A DNA stretch of 63,903 nucleotides from an uncultured Candidatus Saccharibacteria bacterium (GTDB lineage Bacteria; Patescibacteriota; Saccharimonadia; Saccharimonadales; Saccharimonadaceae), in assembly GCA_946406315.1 (NCBI GenBank), contig CAMJKD010000007.1, positions 1 to 63,903 of the forward strand. Reading direction: 5' to 3'. The translations under genes were made by a program, and so were the position numbers. How positions within the stretch are numbered: position 1 is the first letter of the stretch; each line of letters starts with the position of its first letter. A model generated the notes under the pieces. The model did no database searches. It was not told where the DNA came from and worked only from the letters and a program-made list of their open reading frames with translations. Of the stretch, positions 5,959-12,174 are shown piece by piece.

Positions 5959-7407
5959 ATGAAAAAAATATTAAAACTAATGTTAGCGCTTGCGTTGACG
6001 TCTATGCTGACGGTCGGCAACATAGACGTATTCGCCGCGGGCACTCATAGTATTACTATCAACAATAGTACCCCTGGTCACACTTACGAGGCATATCAGA
6101 TTTTTACTGGCGACCTCTCGCAAGACAAAACAACCCTATCGAATATTCAATGGGGCTCTAATATGTCCTCATCCTACACTTCCGGCAAAACCGCTAAGAC
6201 GATTGCTGATTATATGGAAAAAGGAAAGGCCGAGGATGGCACCACGGCTAGAACTGCTGCCGAGTGGGCGACGGTTATTGAGGGCGCATTGAATAATAAT
6301 AGCCCAGCCGGGACGGCTAATTCAGTGGTTAATAATGCCTACACGATTACTGGTCTAGCTGAAGGTTATTACCTCATTAAGGATAGGGACAATACGCTTG
6401 GCGGCGAGAACGATGCCTATACCGAATTCATCCTTATGCTCGTCGGTGATGCTCAGGTAAATCCAAAATCCGGCATCCCCACCGCTACGAAGATGATTGA
6501 CGAATCAACCGATACGGCATATTCCGCTCAATATCGTGTCGGCGATACGGTCAACTTCATTCTTACAGGTACTATGCCGTCAAACTATAATAGTTACGCT
6601 TCTTACAAATATACTTTGCACGATAAATCGGCCGCTGGCTTCACTGTTGATACAAGCTCAATCAAGGTTTATGTTGGTAGTACGCAAATTACGACTGGCT
6701 TTACTATTAATACTAGCCCATCAGATAATGATACTTTCGACATAGTCTTTACTGACACGAAAGCTATTCAGTCTATTAATTCAAACAGTGAGATTATTGT
6801 TAAATATGCAGCCACTGTTAATAGCAATGCCGTAATTGGTAGCGCGGGCAACAGTAACGAATTAAAAATTGATTTCTCAAACAATCCGAACGACCCTACC
6901 GAGACTGGCACTACAACTACCTCCTCTGTGAAAGTTTATCTCTACAATATTATTATCAATAAGCTAGACGAAAACGATGCGGCTCTCAACGGCGCAAAGT
7001 TCAAACTCGAACGATTGATCGATGCAACAAATGATACTTGGGAAACTGTTGATGAAATCAACGGCACAAGTAGCAATACATTCGCATTTACCGGTCTCGG
7101 ACTTGGTACTTATAAGTTAACGGAGACTACAACGCCTGATGGCTACAATACAATCGACCCCGTTACAATCGTCGTAACTGGTACGGTGGATAACACTGGC
7201 TTCACGGCCTTAAGTGCGACAGGTCTCTCGTTTACCGCTAATCTAACCAATGGTACTTTGACTGCCAATATTCAAAATATCCCCGGCTCCGCTCTGCCAT
7301 TTACGGGCGGCATTGGTGCTACAATCTTTACCGTTCTCGGTATCGCCTTTATTGCGGTAGGTGTAACAATTGCAGTACGTAGGACTAGCAAAAAAGAAAG
7401 CAAATAA
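5959..7407 (+). CDS. Major pilin subunit, isopeptide-forming SpaA/Fim type
   Basis: Pilus shaft protein of 482 residues. It has a Sec signal peptide ending near FAAG (about residue 27), a VNPKSG segment (about residues 170-175) that corresponds to the pilin-motif lysine used for polymerisation, a middle isopeptide domain, a C-terminal Cna-B domain with the E-box-like KLTETTTPDGY (about residues 391-401), and an LPFTG sorting signal followed by a membrane helix and RRTSKKESK. Start at 5959 follows AGGAG at 7 nt. It lies 49 bp after the adhesin and 12 bp before the sortase C gene, which would join its threonine to the pilin lysine of the next subunit. Family assignment is firm; the exact lysine is inferred. 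Confidence 0.88.
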   Translation: MKKILKLMLALALTSMLTVGNIDVFAAGTHSITINNSTPGHTYEAYQIFTGDLSQDKTTLSNIQWGSNMSSSYTSGKTAKTIADYMEKGKAEDGTTARTAAEWATVIEGALNNNSPAGTANSVVNNAYTITGLAEGYYLIKDRDNTLGGENDAYTEFILMLVGDAQVNPKSGIPTATKMIDESTDTAYSAQYRVGDTVNFILTGTMPSNYNSYASYKYTLHDKSAAGFTVDTSSIKVYVGSTQITTGFTINTSPSDNDTFDIVFTDTKAIQSINSNSEIIVKYAATVNSNAVIGSAGNSNELKIDFSNNPNDPTETGTTTTSSVKVYLYNIIINKLDENDAALNGAKFKLERLIDATNDTWETVDEINGTSSNTFAFTGLGLGTYKLTETTTPDGYNTIDPVTIVVTGTVDNTGFTALSATGLSFTANLTNGTLTANIQNIPGSALPFTGGIGATIFTVLGIAFIAVGVTIAVRRTSKKESK

Positions 7408-7419
7408 TTAGTAGTTGAG

Positions 7420-8253
7420 ATGCCTATGGAAAAAAGGACGAAAATCCTCATCATATTAATGATTACGATAGGCGTCTTACTCCTACTATATCCACATGTA
7501 AGCAATTTTATAGCAGAATATCAGCAGTGTAATTTAATAAATAACTACCTTGAGACATTAGAGAATCTCAATGAAGAACGTTATACGGATTTGTACCAAA
7601 AAGCTTTAGCTTATAATGAAGAATTATATAAGCTACAGCAAGAAAACGTCCTCAATGAGAAAGGTCTCGACAATTACGCAGACACCTTAAAAATTGACGG
7701 TACGGACATAATGGGTTTTATTGAAATTCCAAGCGTAGACATTCGAATTCCGATTTATCATGGCACCGATGAAAACGTTCTTCAAGTTGGCATTGGTCAT
7801 TATAGCTATACGTCGTTACCGATTGGTGGAAACAATACGCACGCGGTGCTCTTCGGACACAGTGCGCTACCTCACGCCAAGCTATTTACAGACCTCGAGA
7901 AGCTTAATTTGGGTGATCTTTTCGACATTGGCGTCTTGAATCAGAAGCTATATTACCGCATATCTAATATCGAAGTTGTCGAGCCAGACGCATTAACCAG
8001 CCAAATCCCAGTCATAAAAGACAAGGATTTAGTAACTCTTGTCACCTGTACGCCGTATGGGGTTAATTCTCATCGTCTTATTATTACCGGAGAACGCATC
8101 GGTATCGTTGATGATGTCGAAGGCGATCGGGCGACGGAGAAGAAAAAAGCCCAAGTTCTAGTCACTTGTATTATAACTTCAATTTTCTTTGTGGGTGTAA
8201 TTGCAGTAATTATGATAATGATTCGAAGAAAGAAGCAAAAGAAGCATGCCTAA
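7420..8253 (+). CDS. Class C (pilus-polymerising) sortase
   Basis: Transpeptidase of 277 residues. Two membrane segments, at residues 6-24 and about 245-268, flank the catalytic domain, the class C topology. The catalytic triad is visible: His in LFGHSALPH (about residue 147), Cys in TLVTCTPYG (about 210) and Arg in SHRLII (about 219). It should cut the major pilin at LPFTG and polymerise it at the outer face of the membrane. I do not see the DPF/W lid motif common in class C enzymes. Start is either ATG at 7420 or ATG at 7426. The 3' end overlaps the next gene by 8 bp, pointing to translational coupling. Confidence 0.9.
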   Translation: MPMEKRTKILIILMITIGVLLLLYPHVSNFIAEYQQCNLINNYLETLENLNEERYTDLYQKALAYNEELYKLQQENVLNEKGLDNYADTLKIDGTDIMGFIEIPSVDIRIPIYHGTDENVLQVGIGHYSYTSLPIGGNNTHAVLFGHSALPHAKLFTDLEKLNLGDLFDIGVLNQKLYYRISNIEVVEPDALTSQIPVIKDKDLVTLVTCTPYGVNSHRLIITGERIGIVDDVEGDRATEKKKAQVLVTCIITSIFFVGVIAVIMIMIRRKKQKKHA

Positions 8254-8866
8254 AATAAATCTCAAAAAAATGATTTATATTATCGCGTCATTTTTCGTGA
8301 TTTGCCTTTTTGATACTTCCGCTTTCGCGAAAGAAATTGACCCGAATCATAAGGGTAAGGCTATTATCTATACGGAAAGCGTGGATACTAGTGAGCCGCT
8401 TAATGATGTTGTTGTTAACTTCTATCAAATCGCCATGCTGGATAGATCGCTTAATTTTGTTCCAGTGAGTTCAGAAATTGACCTTTCTGCGACGAGTAAA
8501 CAAATACTAGAAAAAATTAAAACATTAAATATTTCTCCTCAAAAACTTGTTAGCAAAAATGGGATCGCTACCTTTGGCAACCTCAATCTGGGTATCTATT
8601 TGGTAGAGATCCCTAATCAAGAAATTGATAAAAAGACATACGGCGCTGAGCCTTTTATTGTTAATATGCCCGTAAGTTATGCCGACAACTATAGTTATTT
8701 GGTTGAGGCTACGCCAAAAATTAGTATCCAAAAGGATCCTAACGTTAAGCCCGTACCATATACTTCATCTCAAAGTTATCTTGATGCCTGGGTTCTCCTA
8801 ACTATTGGTTTTATCATGATTGTTGTGGGGGTTGGAATCAGAAAGCATGAGCACCGTCGCGCATAA
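8246..8866 (+). CDS. Small pilin-like surface protein with an atypical sorting signal
   Basis: Protein of 206 residues with a signal peptide (hydrophobic about 8-26, cleavage near SAFA), one Cna-B/SpaA-like beta domain (FGNLNLGIYLVEIPNQE resembles the end of such domains), and a C-terminal helix with the basic tail RKHEHRR. The layout is that of a wall-anchored minor or basal pilin, but there is no LPXTG. The segment just before the helix reads KPVPYTSSQSY, so VPYTS may be a diverged sorting signal. The next gene encodes a second sortase that overlaps it by 20 bp and may be its partner. Function as basal pilin is inferred from position. Confidence 0.7.
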   Translation: MPKINLKKMIYIIASFFVICLFDTSAFAKEIDPNHKGKAIIYTESVDTSEPLNDVVVNFYQIAMLDRSLNFVPVSSEIDLSATSKQILEKIKTLNISPQKLVSKNGIATFGNLNLGIYLVEIPNQEIDKKTYGAEPFIVNMPVSYADNYSYLVEATPKISIQKDPNVKPVPYTSSQSYLDAWVLLTIGFIMIVVGVGIRKHEHRRA

Positions 8867-9416
8867 TAAATTAAGAAAACGCCACTTCGTCAGCACGGCT
8901 CTGACAGCTATAGGCATTGCCATAGCGTTAATAGGGTTAGGAGTGTATATATGCAGGCGCCTCGAAAATTTTTTCGAACTACAAGCAAGTAGTCGTGTCG
9001 TTGGTCTTCTAACGGAAGCTATATCGAGCACACCGGACGCGGACGGTAGTCTAACGATCGATAATAAAGAATATATAGGAATTATTGAATTGCCGAGTCT
9101 AAATCTAACTCTCCCAGTACTCGCATCTTGCGAGGGCGATAACTTAGAAAAGGGAATTTGCCTTTATTCTAGTAATGGCAACTATGTGATTGGCGGACAT
9201 AATCGAGATAGTCAATTTGGACCAATTTATGACCTTAAAATCAACGATAAACTTATTTTCTACGATATTCATTCAAACAAAAAAGAATATACGCTCGCGA
9301 AAACCGAGATATTATTGCCAGAGGATGTCGAAAAATTCACCACTAATGAATATGGCATTACACTATTTACTTGCTATTGGGATAATCATCAACGATACGT
9401 TTTAAGATTCAACTAG
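8847..9416 (+). CDS. Second sortase of the pilus locus
   Basis: Sortase of 189 residues from the ATG at 8847; the frame is open from a TTG at 8820, but the ATG gives a normal short basic N-terminus before the single membrane helix (about residues 15-37). Catalytic residues: His in VIGGHNRD (about 117), Cys in LFTCYWD (about 176) and Arg in QRYVLRFN near the C-terminus. It has only an N-terminal anchor, unlike the class C enzyme upstream, so it fits a housekeeping-like class (A, D or E) that would attach the finished pilus or the small pilin-like protein to the wall. It overlaps the preceding gene by 20 bp and ends the operon. Confidence 0.85.
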   Translation: MSTVAHNKLRKRHFVSTALTAIGIAIALIGLGVYICRRLENFFELQASSRVVGLLTEAISSTPDADGSLTIDNKEYIGIIELPSLNLTLPVLASCEGDNLEKGICLYSSNGNYVIGGHNRDSQFGPIYDLKINDKLIFYDIHSNKKEYTLAKTEILLPEDVEKFTTNEYGITLFTCYWDNHQRYVLRFN

Positions 9417-10023: not shown

Positions 10024-11190
10024 TTAATCTTTGCGCAACTTCAAGGCAATCGGTATGGCAAGCGGTACAAAAATAGCTATCGTCGTTAGCAGGGCATACT
10101 GCAGTTCTATATCGGCTGCACGGTTGATTACCCAGACTGCGCCAATATAAAGCAGCTGCGCAACTACGCGTGCGAAAGATTCAACCGAGCTTTGTTCGGA
10201 GGCGCGTACCTGTTCTTTTACGAGTGGCATCATTGTGGCTGCGCTCCAGCCTTGTGCCATTCCGAATAGCGCATACAGGCAGACTGTCACGATATTTAAT
10301 TCGAAGAACATAACCGTGCTGGCTAGGCTAACTAGAACGATCGGCACTATAAATAGCTGCCAATCTTTCATTTTTGGCGCAAAACGACGTGCTAATTTTG
10401 TACCAAAGTAGGCGGCAATGTAATTTACTACCCACCCCATCGATACAACTGCCAGTGGTATACCTACGTAGAGCATCAAAGGCGTGAAAACCCAAATGAT
10501 ACCATGTGTTATTTCGCGTGCTACCGCATAAGCGATGATGCGAATACGTAATTTGCGGTTGCTCAGATTGCGCGCCACTAAGGCCACCATTTCCGACAAC
10601 GGATTGCCTGCAGCTTCCAGTCTTTCGCTGTCGTCATTAATCAATAAGCTGATAAATGCGCCAGTAAAATGCGTAAGGCACGATACGGCTATCGCTAAAC
10701 GGAAGCTTATGGCGCCAATTGGTCCACCGAGTAACATGACGATGAGCGTAGCGATTTGTCGATAAGATGCCATTTTGGCGTACTTATCTCTAAACAACTT
10801 GCCAGAATCGTCGATCTTTTCTGCGAAATGCTTTAATAATGTAGAATCTACGCCTTGCGATAAGGCGCAGCCTATTCCGCAAAGGGTTTCACAGAGTACA
10901 ACAAACCAGAAGCTTTGGGCAGTAGAGTAGAGCAGTAACGAAATTGCCACTAACGAATCTCCTATGACGTTTGCCCATTTACGACTGAAACGATCTGCCA
11001 ACCAGCCCAGGGGCAAGTTGAGCAACATTGCGACAACTGTAAAGGCCATCTGTGACATTGCAATTTGTTCTTGATTCAGGCCGATACTCAGGTAAAACGG
11101 AGTCATGATCGGTACGGCGAGGATGCCTGCCGTAACTGCCGACTCCAGAATCACCAAGCGTAAATTACGCAGAGGACTATTATTACGCAT
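10024..11190 (-). CDS. MFS-family efflux transporter
   Basis: Major facilitator superfamily protein of 388 residues with about 12 membrane helices. The loop between helices 2 and 3 carries the MFS motif A in the form GWLADRFSRKW (about residues 58-68). The family exports small molecules using the proton gradient; the substrate cannot be told from sequence, but the size and motif fit drug-type exporters. The ATG at 11190 follows GGGAGGGATGTTCG, a good ribosome-binding site. A 250-nt leader with a short upstream reading frame and competing stem-loops precedes it, which suggests induction by translation stalling or attenuation. It is the only multidrug-type MFS gene in the window and is followed by its own terminator. 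Confidence 0.85.
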   Translation of the reverse strand: MRNNSPLRNLRLVILESAVTAGILAVPIMTPFYLSIGLNQEQIAMSQMAFTVVAMLLNLPLGWLADRFSRKWANVIGDSLVAISLLLYSTAQSFWFVVLCETLCGIGCALSQGVDSTLLKHFAEKIDDSGKLFRDKYAKMASYRQIATLIVMLLGGPIGAISFRLAIAVSCLTHFTGAFISLLINDDSERLEAAGNPLSEMVALVARNLSNRKLRIRIIAYAVAREITHGIIWVFTPLMLYVGIPLAVVSMGWVVNYIAAYFGTKLARRFAPKMKDWQLFIVPIVLVSLASTVMFFELNIVTVCLYALFGMAQGWSAATMMPLVKEQVRASEQSSVESFARVVAQLLYIGAVWVINRAADIELQYALLTTIAIFVPLAIPIALKLRKD

Positions 11191-11235
11191 CGAACATCCC
11201 TCCCTTCGATAAGTTGCGTAAAGTGTAAAAGTGCC

Positions 11236-11329
11236 AGCCGTCTTTTTTTATACGGCTAGACAAATTTCAAAAGGCGAGTTTTTGTGATTATTTAGCTAGA
11301 TAAGTCGCTTTTGAAACTTATCTAGATTT
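11236..11329 (-). promoter_or_regulatory. Candidate attenuator: competing stem-loops in the MFS leader
   Basis: On the minus-strand RNA, segment A (about 11326-11306) can pair with B (11305-11296) as CTAGATAAGT/ACTTATCTAG, a 10-bp hairpin. The same A segment can instead pair over about 20 bp with segment C (11278-11256), using two G-U pairs and one bulge. C is followed by a further stem AGCCGT/ACGGCT (11257-11236). A:B and A:C exclude each other. The region lies between the leader-peptide stop and the MFS ribosome-binding site. A further ACTTATC sits next to that binding site (around 11205-11212) and could also pair with segment A. Confidence 0.6.
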
Positions 11330-11336
11330 ACAAGAA

Positions 11337-11438
11337 TTAGACAGTTTCCGCGATAATGGCTTTTGGCATAACGACTAGGCCACCTAGATGTGTGACCATT
11401 GCGACCATAAACCAGTATGCGAAATTATTACTGTGCAT
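11337..11438 (-). CDS. Leader peptide upstream of the MFS exporter (33 codons)
   Basis: Short frame too small for routine gene calling: ATG at 11438, TAA at 11337, 33 residues beginning MHSNNFAYWFM and rich in Val, Met, Ala and Ile. It has no Shine-Dalgarno site; its ATG lies 6 nt after a perfect TATAAT, so it would be translated as a leaderless message. It ends 8 nt before segment A of the competing stem-loops that precede the MFS gene. That is the layout of leader peptides that sense ribosome stalling in front of antibiotic-resistance genes. The role is inferred; an independent small membrane peptide is the main alternative. Confidence 0.55.
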   Translation of the reverse strand: MHSNNFAYWFMVAMVTHLGGLVVMPKAIIAETV

Positions 11439-11444
11439 AAGCTA

Positions 11445-11473
11445 ATTATAGCACAGAAAATTCAAAAAGTCAA
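11445..11473 (-). promoter_or_regulatory. Strong promoter of the leader peptide-MFS transcript
   Basis: Minus strand: TTGACT (11473-11468), 17-nt spacer, TATAAT (11450-11445) preceded by TGC (extended -10). Near-consensus for the housekeeping sigma factor. The start point would fall at the leader ATG. Confidence 0.75.
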
Positions 11474-11580: not shown

Positions 11581-12174
11581 ATGACTAGAACGGACAAAGT
11601 ATTCAATGGTTTAGCTGGAAGCGTGTTTCTGGACGTCGCAAAGAAGGTTGCCGACCGTATTGGCATCGATGACACTGCGATAGCAGTGGCGGTCAATGCT
11701 TTTCCGGAAGATGAAGATGACAATCCCGCACCGTATATCGCGACGACCATTTACGGTAACGACTGTGAACTCAGCAAAGAGCGAGAAGAGCAGATGTTCA
11801 AGCGCATCGGCGGCATCATGGAAGAAATAACTCAGTGGGGAAATATCGAGCCCTTCTGTGTTACGAAGCATCCAGGTTTAGCCTTAACGGTTGAATCGGA
11901 CTATTGTAACTATGCCTACATGATCATCGTTATCGATCTCCCGCCGGAGGCAAAGGCGAAAGTCGACGAAGTCGGGTTAATTGCCGAGATAATCGAAATG
12001 ATTAATCAGGAAATGCCGGTTTTTACGGATGAGGATCTTGATGAAGATCCGCTCTTATATGACATTCAGGCGGAAAACGAGTCGGATCCCTCCGTCAGCA
12101 GGATATACGGTATTCTGACCGATCCGGAAATGGTCCATTCATATTTCGTGGAAGACATTAATGATGAAGAATAA
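11581..12174 (+). CDS. Hypothetical acidic protein of unknown function
   Basis: I do not recognise this 197-residue protein. It is acidic, has no signal peptide or membrane segment, and contains alternating hydrophobic stretches (AIAVAVNAF, YMIIVIDLPP) that suggest a folded alpha/beta cytoplasmic domain, with an Asp/Glu-rich C-terminal half. Start at 11581 follows a strong TAGGAGGTG site. It has its own promoter, a 5' hairpin and a strong terminator, and faces another unknown gene (12284-12718) across a double terminator. Strong Shine-Dalgarno use, in contrast to many leaderless neighbours, hints at acquisition, but this is inference. Confidence 0.75.
   Translation: MTRTDKVFNGLAGSVFLDVAKKVADRIGIDDTAIAVAVNAFPEDEDDNPAPYIATTIYGNDCELSKEREEQMFKRIGGIMEEITQWGNIEPFCVTKHPGLALTVESDYCNYAYMIIVIDLPPEAKAKVDEVGLIAEIIEMINQEMPVFTDEDLDEDPLLYDIQAENESDPSVSRIYGILTDPEMVHSYFVEDINDEE

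Follow-up and report, generated by a model that had tools for sequence, protein, structure and literature searches.

A predicted leaderless, trp-type attenuator probably controls a likely MFS exporter gene in Saccharibacteria

The leader of an MFS transporter gene in Saccharibacteria appears to form a four-segment, ribosome-controlled attenuator of the trp type that governs this likely exporter, a reading to which we assign a probability of roughly two in three. The window, that is, the entire stretch of DNA analyzed here (63,903 nucleotides), is contig G000:C7 of the Saccharibacteria genome G000, whose host habitat we judge, from the nearest named relatives, to be gut or rumen. In the trpL leader of E. 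coli, segments 1 and 2 pair when no ribosome is present, segments 2 and 3 form the antiterminator when a ribosome is stalled, and segments 3 and 4 form the terminator. In the MFS leader, the pairings X:0, 0:A, and A:B or A:C rule one another out, in keeping with the logic of the trp attenuator: there are four segments with the same exclusive pairings and, in remote genera, a U tract after the fourth. The components, from the promoter to the transporter gene, are as follows.

11445..11473, minus strand: promoter of the sigma-70 type, TTGACT-17-TATAAT; the predicted start point is the A of the leader ATG
11337..11438, minus strand: predicted leaderless leader frame of 33 codons, MHSNNFAYWFMVAMVTHLGGLVVMPKAIIAETV, recognized by its conservation and the closure of the alternative frames
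11419..11434 (approximate), minus strand: segment X (segment 1), codons ~2-7, predicted to pair with the segment 0 region when the ribosome is absent
11378..11397, minus strand: apical hairpin within the leader frame, GGTCAC..GTGGCC, the tip of the long leader hairpin
11338..11348, minus strand: segment 0 (segment 2), GAAACTGTCTA, in the final leader codons, complementary to A
11308..11325, minus strand: segment A (segment 3), CTAGATAAGTTTCAAAAG, the partner common to 0, B, and C
11296..11305, minus strand: segment B, ACTTATCTAG, 10 bp with A, with no U tract in the window
11256..11273, minus strand: segment C, CTTTTGAAATTTGTCTAG, the second 3' partner of A
11234..11259, minus strand: hairpin D, CTAGCCGT..ACGGCTGG, which shares CTAG with C
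11215..11221, minus strand: 5' arm of hairpin E, TTACGCA, which pairs with TGCGTAA of the MFS start-codon region and leaves the Shine-Dalgarno site in the loop
11195..11206, minus strand: MFS Shine-Dalgarno region, AAGGGAGGGATG
11183..11189, minus strand: 3' arm of hairpin E, TGCGTAA, overlapping the MFS start codon
10024..11190, minus strand: MFS transporter of 388 aa, likely exporter (Pfam MFS_1)

A preliminary description of this locus had noted a near-consensus promoter whose start point coincides with the ATG of the 33-codon frame, and this observation is borne out. The hexamers TTGACT (11473-11468) and TATAAT (11450-11445), separated by 17 nt on the minus strand, give 11 of 12 matches, with TG ahead of the -10 box, and make up the top promoter-like site in the region; the leader ATG follows the -10 box by 6 nt, and both the 17-nt spacer and the distance of exactly 6 nt recur at 23 of 23 loci of the genus. 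Judging from this spacing, we infer that the leader transcript is leaderless, with the A of AUG as RNA base 1. The perfect pattern TTGAC-N17-19-TATAAT-N5-7-ATG is found seven times in G000 (L118-L124) and not once in a reversed control. Leaderless starts seem to be normal in this genome because five of the six other pattern sites begin long, real-looking gene frames, among which are, as we take them to be from reading the sequences, UvrA-like, DnaJ-like, and TetR-like proteins. At L120, the pattern opens an 18-codon frame ahead of another gene, which may be a second leader.

The product of the downstream gene matches Pfam MFS_1 with 72.7 bits (cut-off 33.4). Its nearest named families are drug exporters, all weak matches; the TetA(P)-like drug-efflux family of NCBIfam scores 46 bits, below the cut-off of 750, and a search for solved structures related by sequence returned none. 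Divergent from the MFS leader, the plus strand (11581-12174) encodes a 197-aa protein that matches no Pfam or NCBIfam family; farther away on the same strand (5959-9416), beside two tRNA genes, there are sortase-like frames and, next to them, surface proteins whose sorting signal resembles LPFTG.

The layout is not peculiar to the window. Searches with the MFS protein gathered loci from 24 of 45 genomes of the genus and from 56 of 394 genomes of the family, representing 11 genera, and the full arrangement of promoter, frame, and segments is present at 54 of the 56 readable MFS loci, across all 11 genera; thus, homologous loci keep both the short frame and the stems, the conservation on which the preliminary description had staked its claim. 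Wherever the upstream DNA of a genus locus could be read (23 loci), promoter and leader frame are both there, and the frame spans 31-40 codons (29-55 across the family). This frame is open at 54 of 54 loci; the +1 frame is closed at 48 of them and the +2 frame at 51. Because the frame, the promoter spacing, and the segments recur at 54 loci, the observation goes beyond chance, and since the design has been kept in 54 related pump genes, we regard the switch as real and ancient. It occurs once in G000 and only ahead of this MFS gene family: with the leader peptide as the query, every relative lies ahead of an orthologous MFS gene, and the sole other match (L012) is weak and unrelated. The idea that the same leader precedes genes other than MFS was rejected, given that the matches of the RNA model elsewhere are other MFS loci, antisense echoes, or chance (L069). 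Two MFS genes of the family, L097 in G045 and L113 (a second copy in G180, 33% identical), have no leader switch and could serve as natural controls. Beyond the family, only weak MFS matches were obtained; at one remote homologue with 25% identity (L116 in G094, family f35), a short frame lies by a -10-like box together with an intrinsic terminator, a layout that hints that the design predates the family.

The predicted fold of the window's leader (-62.9 kcal/mol) is far more stable than those of dinucleotide-shuffled sequences (-42.3 +/- 4.3 kcal/mol; z = -4.8), and an Rfam scan of the window at the gathering score recovered two tRNAs only, with no match to a leader RNA. The stems that had been described initially, A:B with 10 bp, A:C with about 20 bp, and the further stem D, are all present in the window and recur in its relatives; A:C comprises 18 contiguous pairs, or about 21 when a GCG:CGC extension is counted. 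Segments 0 and X and the overlap of D with C through CTAG had been missed. In folding predictions, the truncated, ribosome-free leader folds back into a single long hairpin through pairing of the first codons, X, with the region of segment 0; the apical part of this hairpin recurs in relatives with altered bases (GCCGTC..ACGGT, CGCC..GGCG). The mean probability of X:0 is 0.80, versus 0.21 with codons 2-15 shuffled; at 51 of 54 loci, the observed value is higher than in 19 or all of the 20 shuffles. Across the family, segment 0 overlaps the leader stop or lies near it (within ~25 nt at nearly all loci), and A mostly begins 13-43 nt past the stop.

The check for covariation across related genomes that the initial description had called for gave strong signals for 0:A and A:C. 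In an alignment of 45 distinct, nearly gap-free rows, the kinship among which inflates covariation counts, two-sided changes are seen at 9 of 12 pairs of 0:A, 13 of 18 of A:C, and 5 of 8 of D. Paired cells amount to 89.6% for 0:A (slid controls, 18-43%), 92.1% for A:C (24-51%), and 91.4% for D. Shuffles hardly ever equal the observed values of the three helices, except for the two-sided count of D, which is not significant (76 of 500 shuffles). Segments 0 and C were picked as the best complements of A, a choice that inflates pairing; with the same choice made on shuffled windows, the observed pairing wins at 45 of 54 loci for 0 and at 54 of 54 for C. The complementarity of 0 and A is legible by eye, for instance, GGAATTTGTCTA with TAGATAAGTTCC in G006 and GAGACTTATC with GATAAGTCTC in G052. 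At L088 and L086 (G165 and G552), A is directly preceded by CTAGATAAACTAGATAAATCCC, which repeats part of it in tandem. A TTTACA-like motif a few nucleotides past hairpin D (11224-11233 in the window, minus strand) recurs in most genera. The preliminary description also pointed to a third ACTTATC next to the MFS Shine-Dalgarno site; the motif is there (11214-11208) but is confined to the window, with no counterpart in relatives, and was rejected as a switch element for this lack of conservation.

The effect of the ribosome was modeled by equilibrium folding of truncated transcripts, that is, of RNA alone, without RNA polymerase. For transcripts ending in A, 0:A has a mean probability of 0.39 in the absence of a ribosome and of 0.01 when one occupies the stop codon; covering the first ~14 codons raises the mean to 0.84, with at least 0.5 at 54 of 54 loci. 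When the ribosome is moved codon by codon, group means of this probability are 0.65-0.94 over codons 1-12 and about 0 over the final five codons. At the decision point, where B has just emerged, the window yields, for no, early, and finishing ribosome, 0.00, 0.58, and 0.00 for 0:A and 0.85, 0.27, and 0.85 for A:B; in the remote genera, the corresponding means for A:B are 0.71, 0.39, and 0.78. At equilibrium, this response is weak for genus g2 and for some members of the window's genus, and several remote genera fold 0:A in the truncated transcript even without a ribosome. Within these models, holding the ribosome anywhere in codons 1 to ~12 would favor 0:A, and either no ribosome or a finishing one would favor A:B. 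In the complete leader at equilibrium, A:B or A:C is favored over 0:A in every ribosome state; therefore, 0:A must act kinetically, with RNA polymerase still near.

These predictions translate into the following putative mechanism. A 70S ribosome would load, as the promoter spacing makes probable, at the 5' end of the RNA without a Shine-Dalgarno site, and the leader would then adopt one of three exclusive foldings, as suggested by complementarity and covariation. Without a ribosome, the X:0 self-fold would leave A to B or C, and expression would be low; once the ribosome had reached the stop codon, 0 would be covered, A would again join B or C, and expression would likewise be low. A ribosome slowed or stalled within the first ~12 codons would cover X, so that 0 could take the emerging A, A:B would be blocked, and expression would be high. 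The assignment of high expression to the 0:A state follows from the canonical terminators of remote genera, together with the folding. As the signal, we consider it probable that ribosome-targeting compounds exported by the pump slow early elongation or initiation. The preliminary description had it that stalling on the leader opens A:B and thereby allows A:C. This now has to be recast: the key choice appears to be 0:A versus A:B or A:C, with X:0 as the ribosome-free state, and a ribosome paused at the leader stop would leave A free, only an early-held one freeing 0 for A.

What the switch acts upon seems to differ within the family. At the 11 loci of the remote genera (g3, g9, g17, g61, g66, g70, g81), A:B is mostly a canonical intrinsic terminator, with about -10 to -13 kcal/mol and a U tract behind it at most of these loci, such that the output there would be intrinsic termination of transcription. 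Because A:B is a transcription terminator in these genera, the ancestral output was, in all likelihood, transcriptional rather than erm-like. Most loci of genus g2 have A:C as a terminator-like hairpin, with CUUUUUC in G502 and G535, and the genus usually lacks B. Hairpin D was considered as an intrinsic terminator and rejected: its tail in g2 is not U-rich (TAAATTAACA), and elsewhere its run of U sits 3-4 nt out of place. In the genus of the window, a proper U tract is absent from both A:B and A:C, and there is no canonical terminator; the terminator appears to have degenerated, and the output may be weak termination or, by way of C and hairpin E, control over the translation of the MFS gene.

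The latter option shades into an alternative in which the window's genus has a translational attenuator of the erm/cat type, with the ancestral terminator lost: C pairs with the Shine-Dalgarno site, hairpin E hides the start codon, and A:C frees the site. Along with the missing canonical terminator, this alternative draws on hairpin E itself, which is significant in 17 of 23 genus members, but not in other genera, and includes compensatory variants (TTACGCA/TGCGTAA, TTCTGCA/TGCAGAA, TTTTCGCA/TGCGAAAA, GGACA/TGTCC), and on complementarity between C and the Shine-Dalgarno site, which is significant at 8 of 23 genus loci (for example, -13.9 versus about -6 kcal/mol). When A:C is forced, mean predicted access to the Shine-Dalgarno site rises in the genus from 0.45 to 0.66 and elsewhere merely from 0.48 to 0.53; at 12 of the 23 genus loci, the gain is at least 0.2, and since A:C can raise access there, the ON role at these loci would belong to A:C, not 0:A. 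In the window, however, access barely shifts (0.78, 0.78, 0.84) and the complementarity of C is borderline (p = 0.053), and in G035, G011, G014, and G003, among others, it is not significant. Moreover, a ribosome at the leader stop favors A:B while the RNA is emerging, and the strongly constrained 0:A would be left without a clear purpose. On balance, we consider this alternative doubtful. The original proposal thus holds with respect to a leaderless leader and exclusive stems before the MFS gene, but gives way to a trp-type, four-segment arrangement with respect to the erm-type switch.

The leader itself speaks to the signal. The layout matches that of biosynthetic attenuators, and most leaders contain exactly one Trp codon, as would be expected if the switch sensed a single scarce charged tRNA, such as that for Trp, and the transporter moved the respective metabolite. 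Yet this codon is absent from several leaders and wanders between codons 9 and 30, the leaders of the 54 loci contain no codon run and no stalling or arrest motif conserved across genera, and the nearest named families of the MFS protein, although weakly matched, are drug exporters; Trp sensing was accordingly rejected, and an amino-acid attenuator in general seems improbable to us. The frame could instead encode a small functional peptide, with the RNA stems a separate matter, as its integrity at 54 of 54 loci and the pN/pS of 0.44 for codons 2-12 in the genus would allow. However, codons 13-28 are almost unconstrained (pN/pS 0.83), the conserved codons coincide with X, the apical hairpin, and segment 0, and the peptide differs strongly between genera, which makes this the least probable of the explanations that we weighed. 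RNA pairing accounts for much of the constraint on the leader codons, and a conserved arrest peptide was rejected because conservation tracks RNA pairing while the amino acids drift. It is also very unlikely that the leader RNA senses a small molecule or a protein and that translation of the frame is incidental: conserved structure that is strong and extends to hairpin D and the TTTACA-like tail would be in keeping with such a sensor, but there is no Rfam match, and a switch that works without a ribosome would have no need of pairing segments in the opening and closing codons of a conserved frame. For the attenuator that we favor, a general slowing of early translation, by analogy with bmrB or toiL, fits best as the signal; antibiotics are plausible, and the amino acids of the leader are only weakly constrained.

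Compared with the E. coli trp attenuator, the MFS locus lacks a regulatory codon run, its leader is predicted to begin at RNA base 1, the gene downstream codes for a likely MFS exporter, both B and C can serve as 3' partners of A, and in the genus of the window the terminator is degenerate. For the multidrug transporter of B. subtilis encoded by bmrB-bmrCD, ribosome-mediated transcription attenuation in response to ribosome-targeting drugs has been described (PMC4191407). There, too, a leader frame precedes a transporter gene and its translation sets read-through, as our models predict here, but the transporter is of the ABC type, the terminator lies within the coding frame, and the sequences are unrelated. 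Nor is the leaderless leader, which the initial description had called an unusual version of such a switch, without precedent: in Sinorhizobium meliloti, the attenuator RNA rnTrpL/trpL begins at the ATG of the leader frame (PMC7298713), as predicted for the MFS leader, although it encodes 14 aa with Trp codons, targets trpE(G), and belongs to Alphaproteobacteria. Mycobacterial leaderless polycysteine frames, according to a secondary account, attenuate downstream genes by elongation speed (Canestrari et al. 2020, cited in PMC9031893); they are likewise leaderless short frames, but with cysteine codon runs and in another phylum. With ermC, cat-86, and toiL-topAI, the MFS leader shares an upstream frame and exclusive stems, and a ribosome held on that frame would, in our models, similarly change the downstream gene; however, those systems hide a Shine-Dalgarno site, whereas the ancestral output of the MFS family is a terminator. 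Furthermore, toiL-topAI employs Rho (PMC12121999), whereas no Rho gene was found in G000 (99.5% complete) by a search that was positive in 12 of 14 control genomes, and Rho-dependent termination was rejected for this reason. Ribosome-controlled attenuation of transporters and leaderless attenuators are, thus, already known elsewhere, and the MFS switch is a variant. In the open-access literature, we found no description of attenuation in Saccharibacteria or of leaderless leader peptides in Patescibacteria.

To our knowledge, almost nothing has been established about gene regulation in Patescibacteria. It is possible, albeit clearly short of probable, that the family possesses a class of leaderless, four-segment attenuators that sense a general slowing of early translation rather than one amino acid, and in which the output shifted from intrinsic termination in the remote genera to control of translation initiation in the window's genus while the sensor did not change. 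The loci form a natural series, with one conserved sensor joined to a canonical terminator, a merged terminator, or neither, so that a change from transcriptional to translational output would be testable. If leaderless, the sensor should be read by 70S ribosomes; hence, it would report on elongation that follows a different mode of initiation. The switch would also provide a testable hypothesis for how host-dependent bacteria respond to ribosome-targeting compounds.
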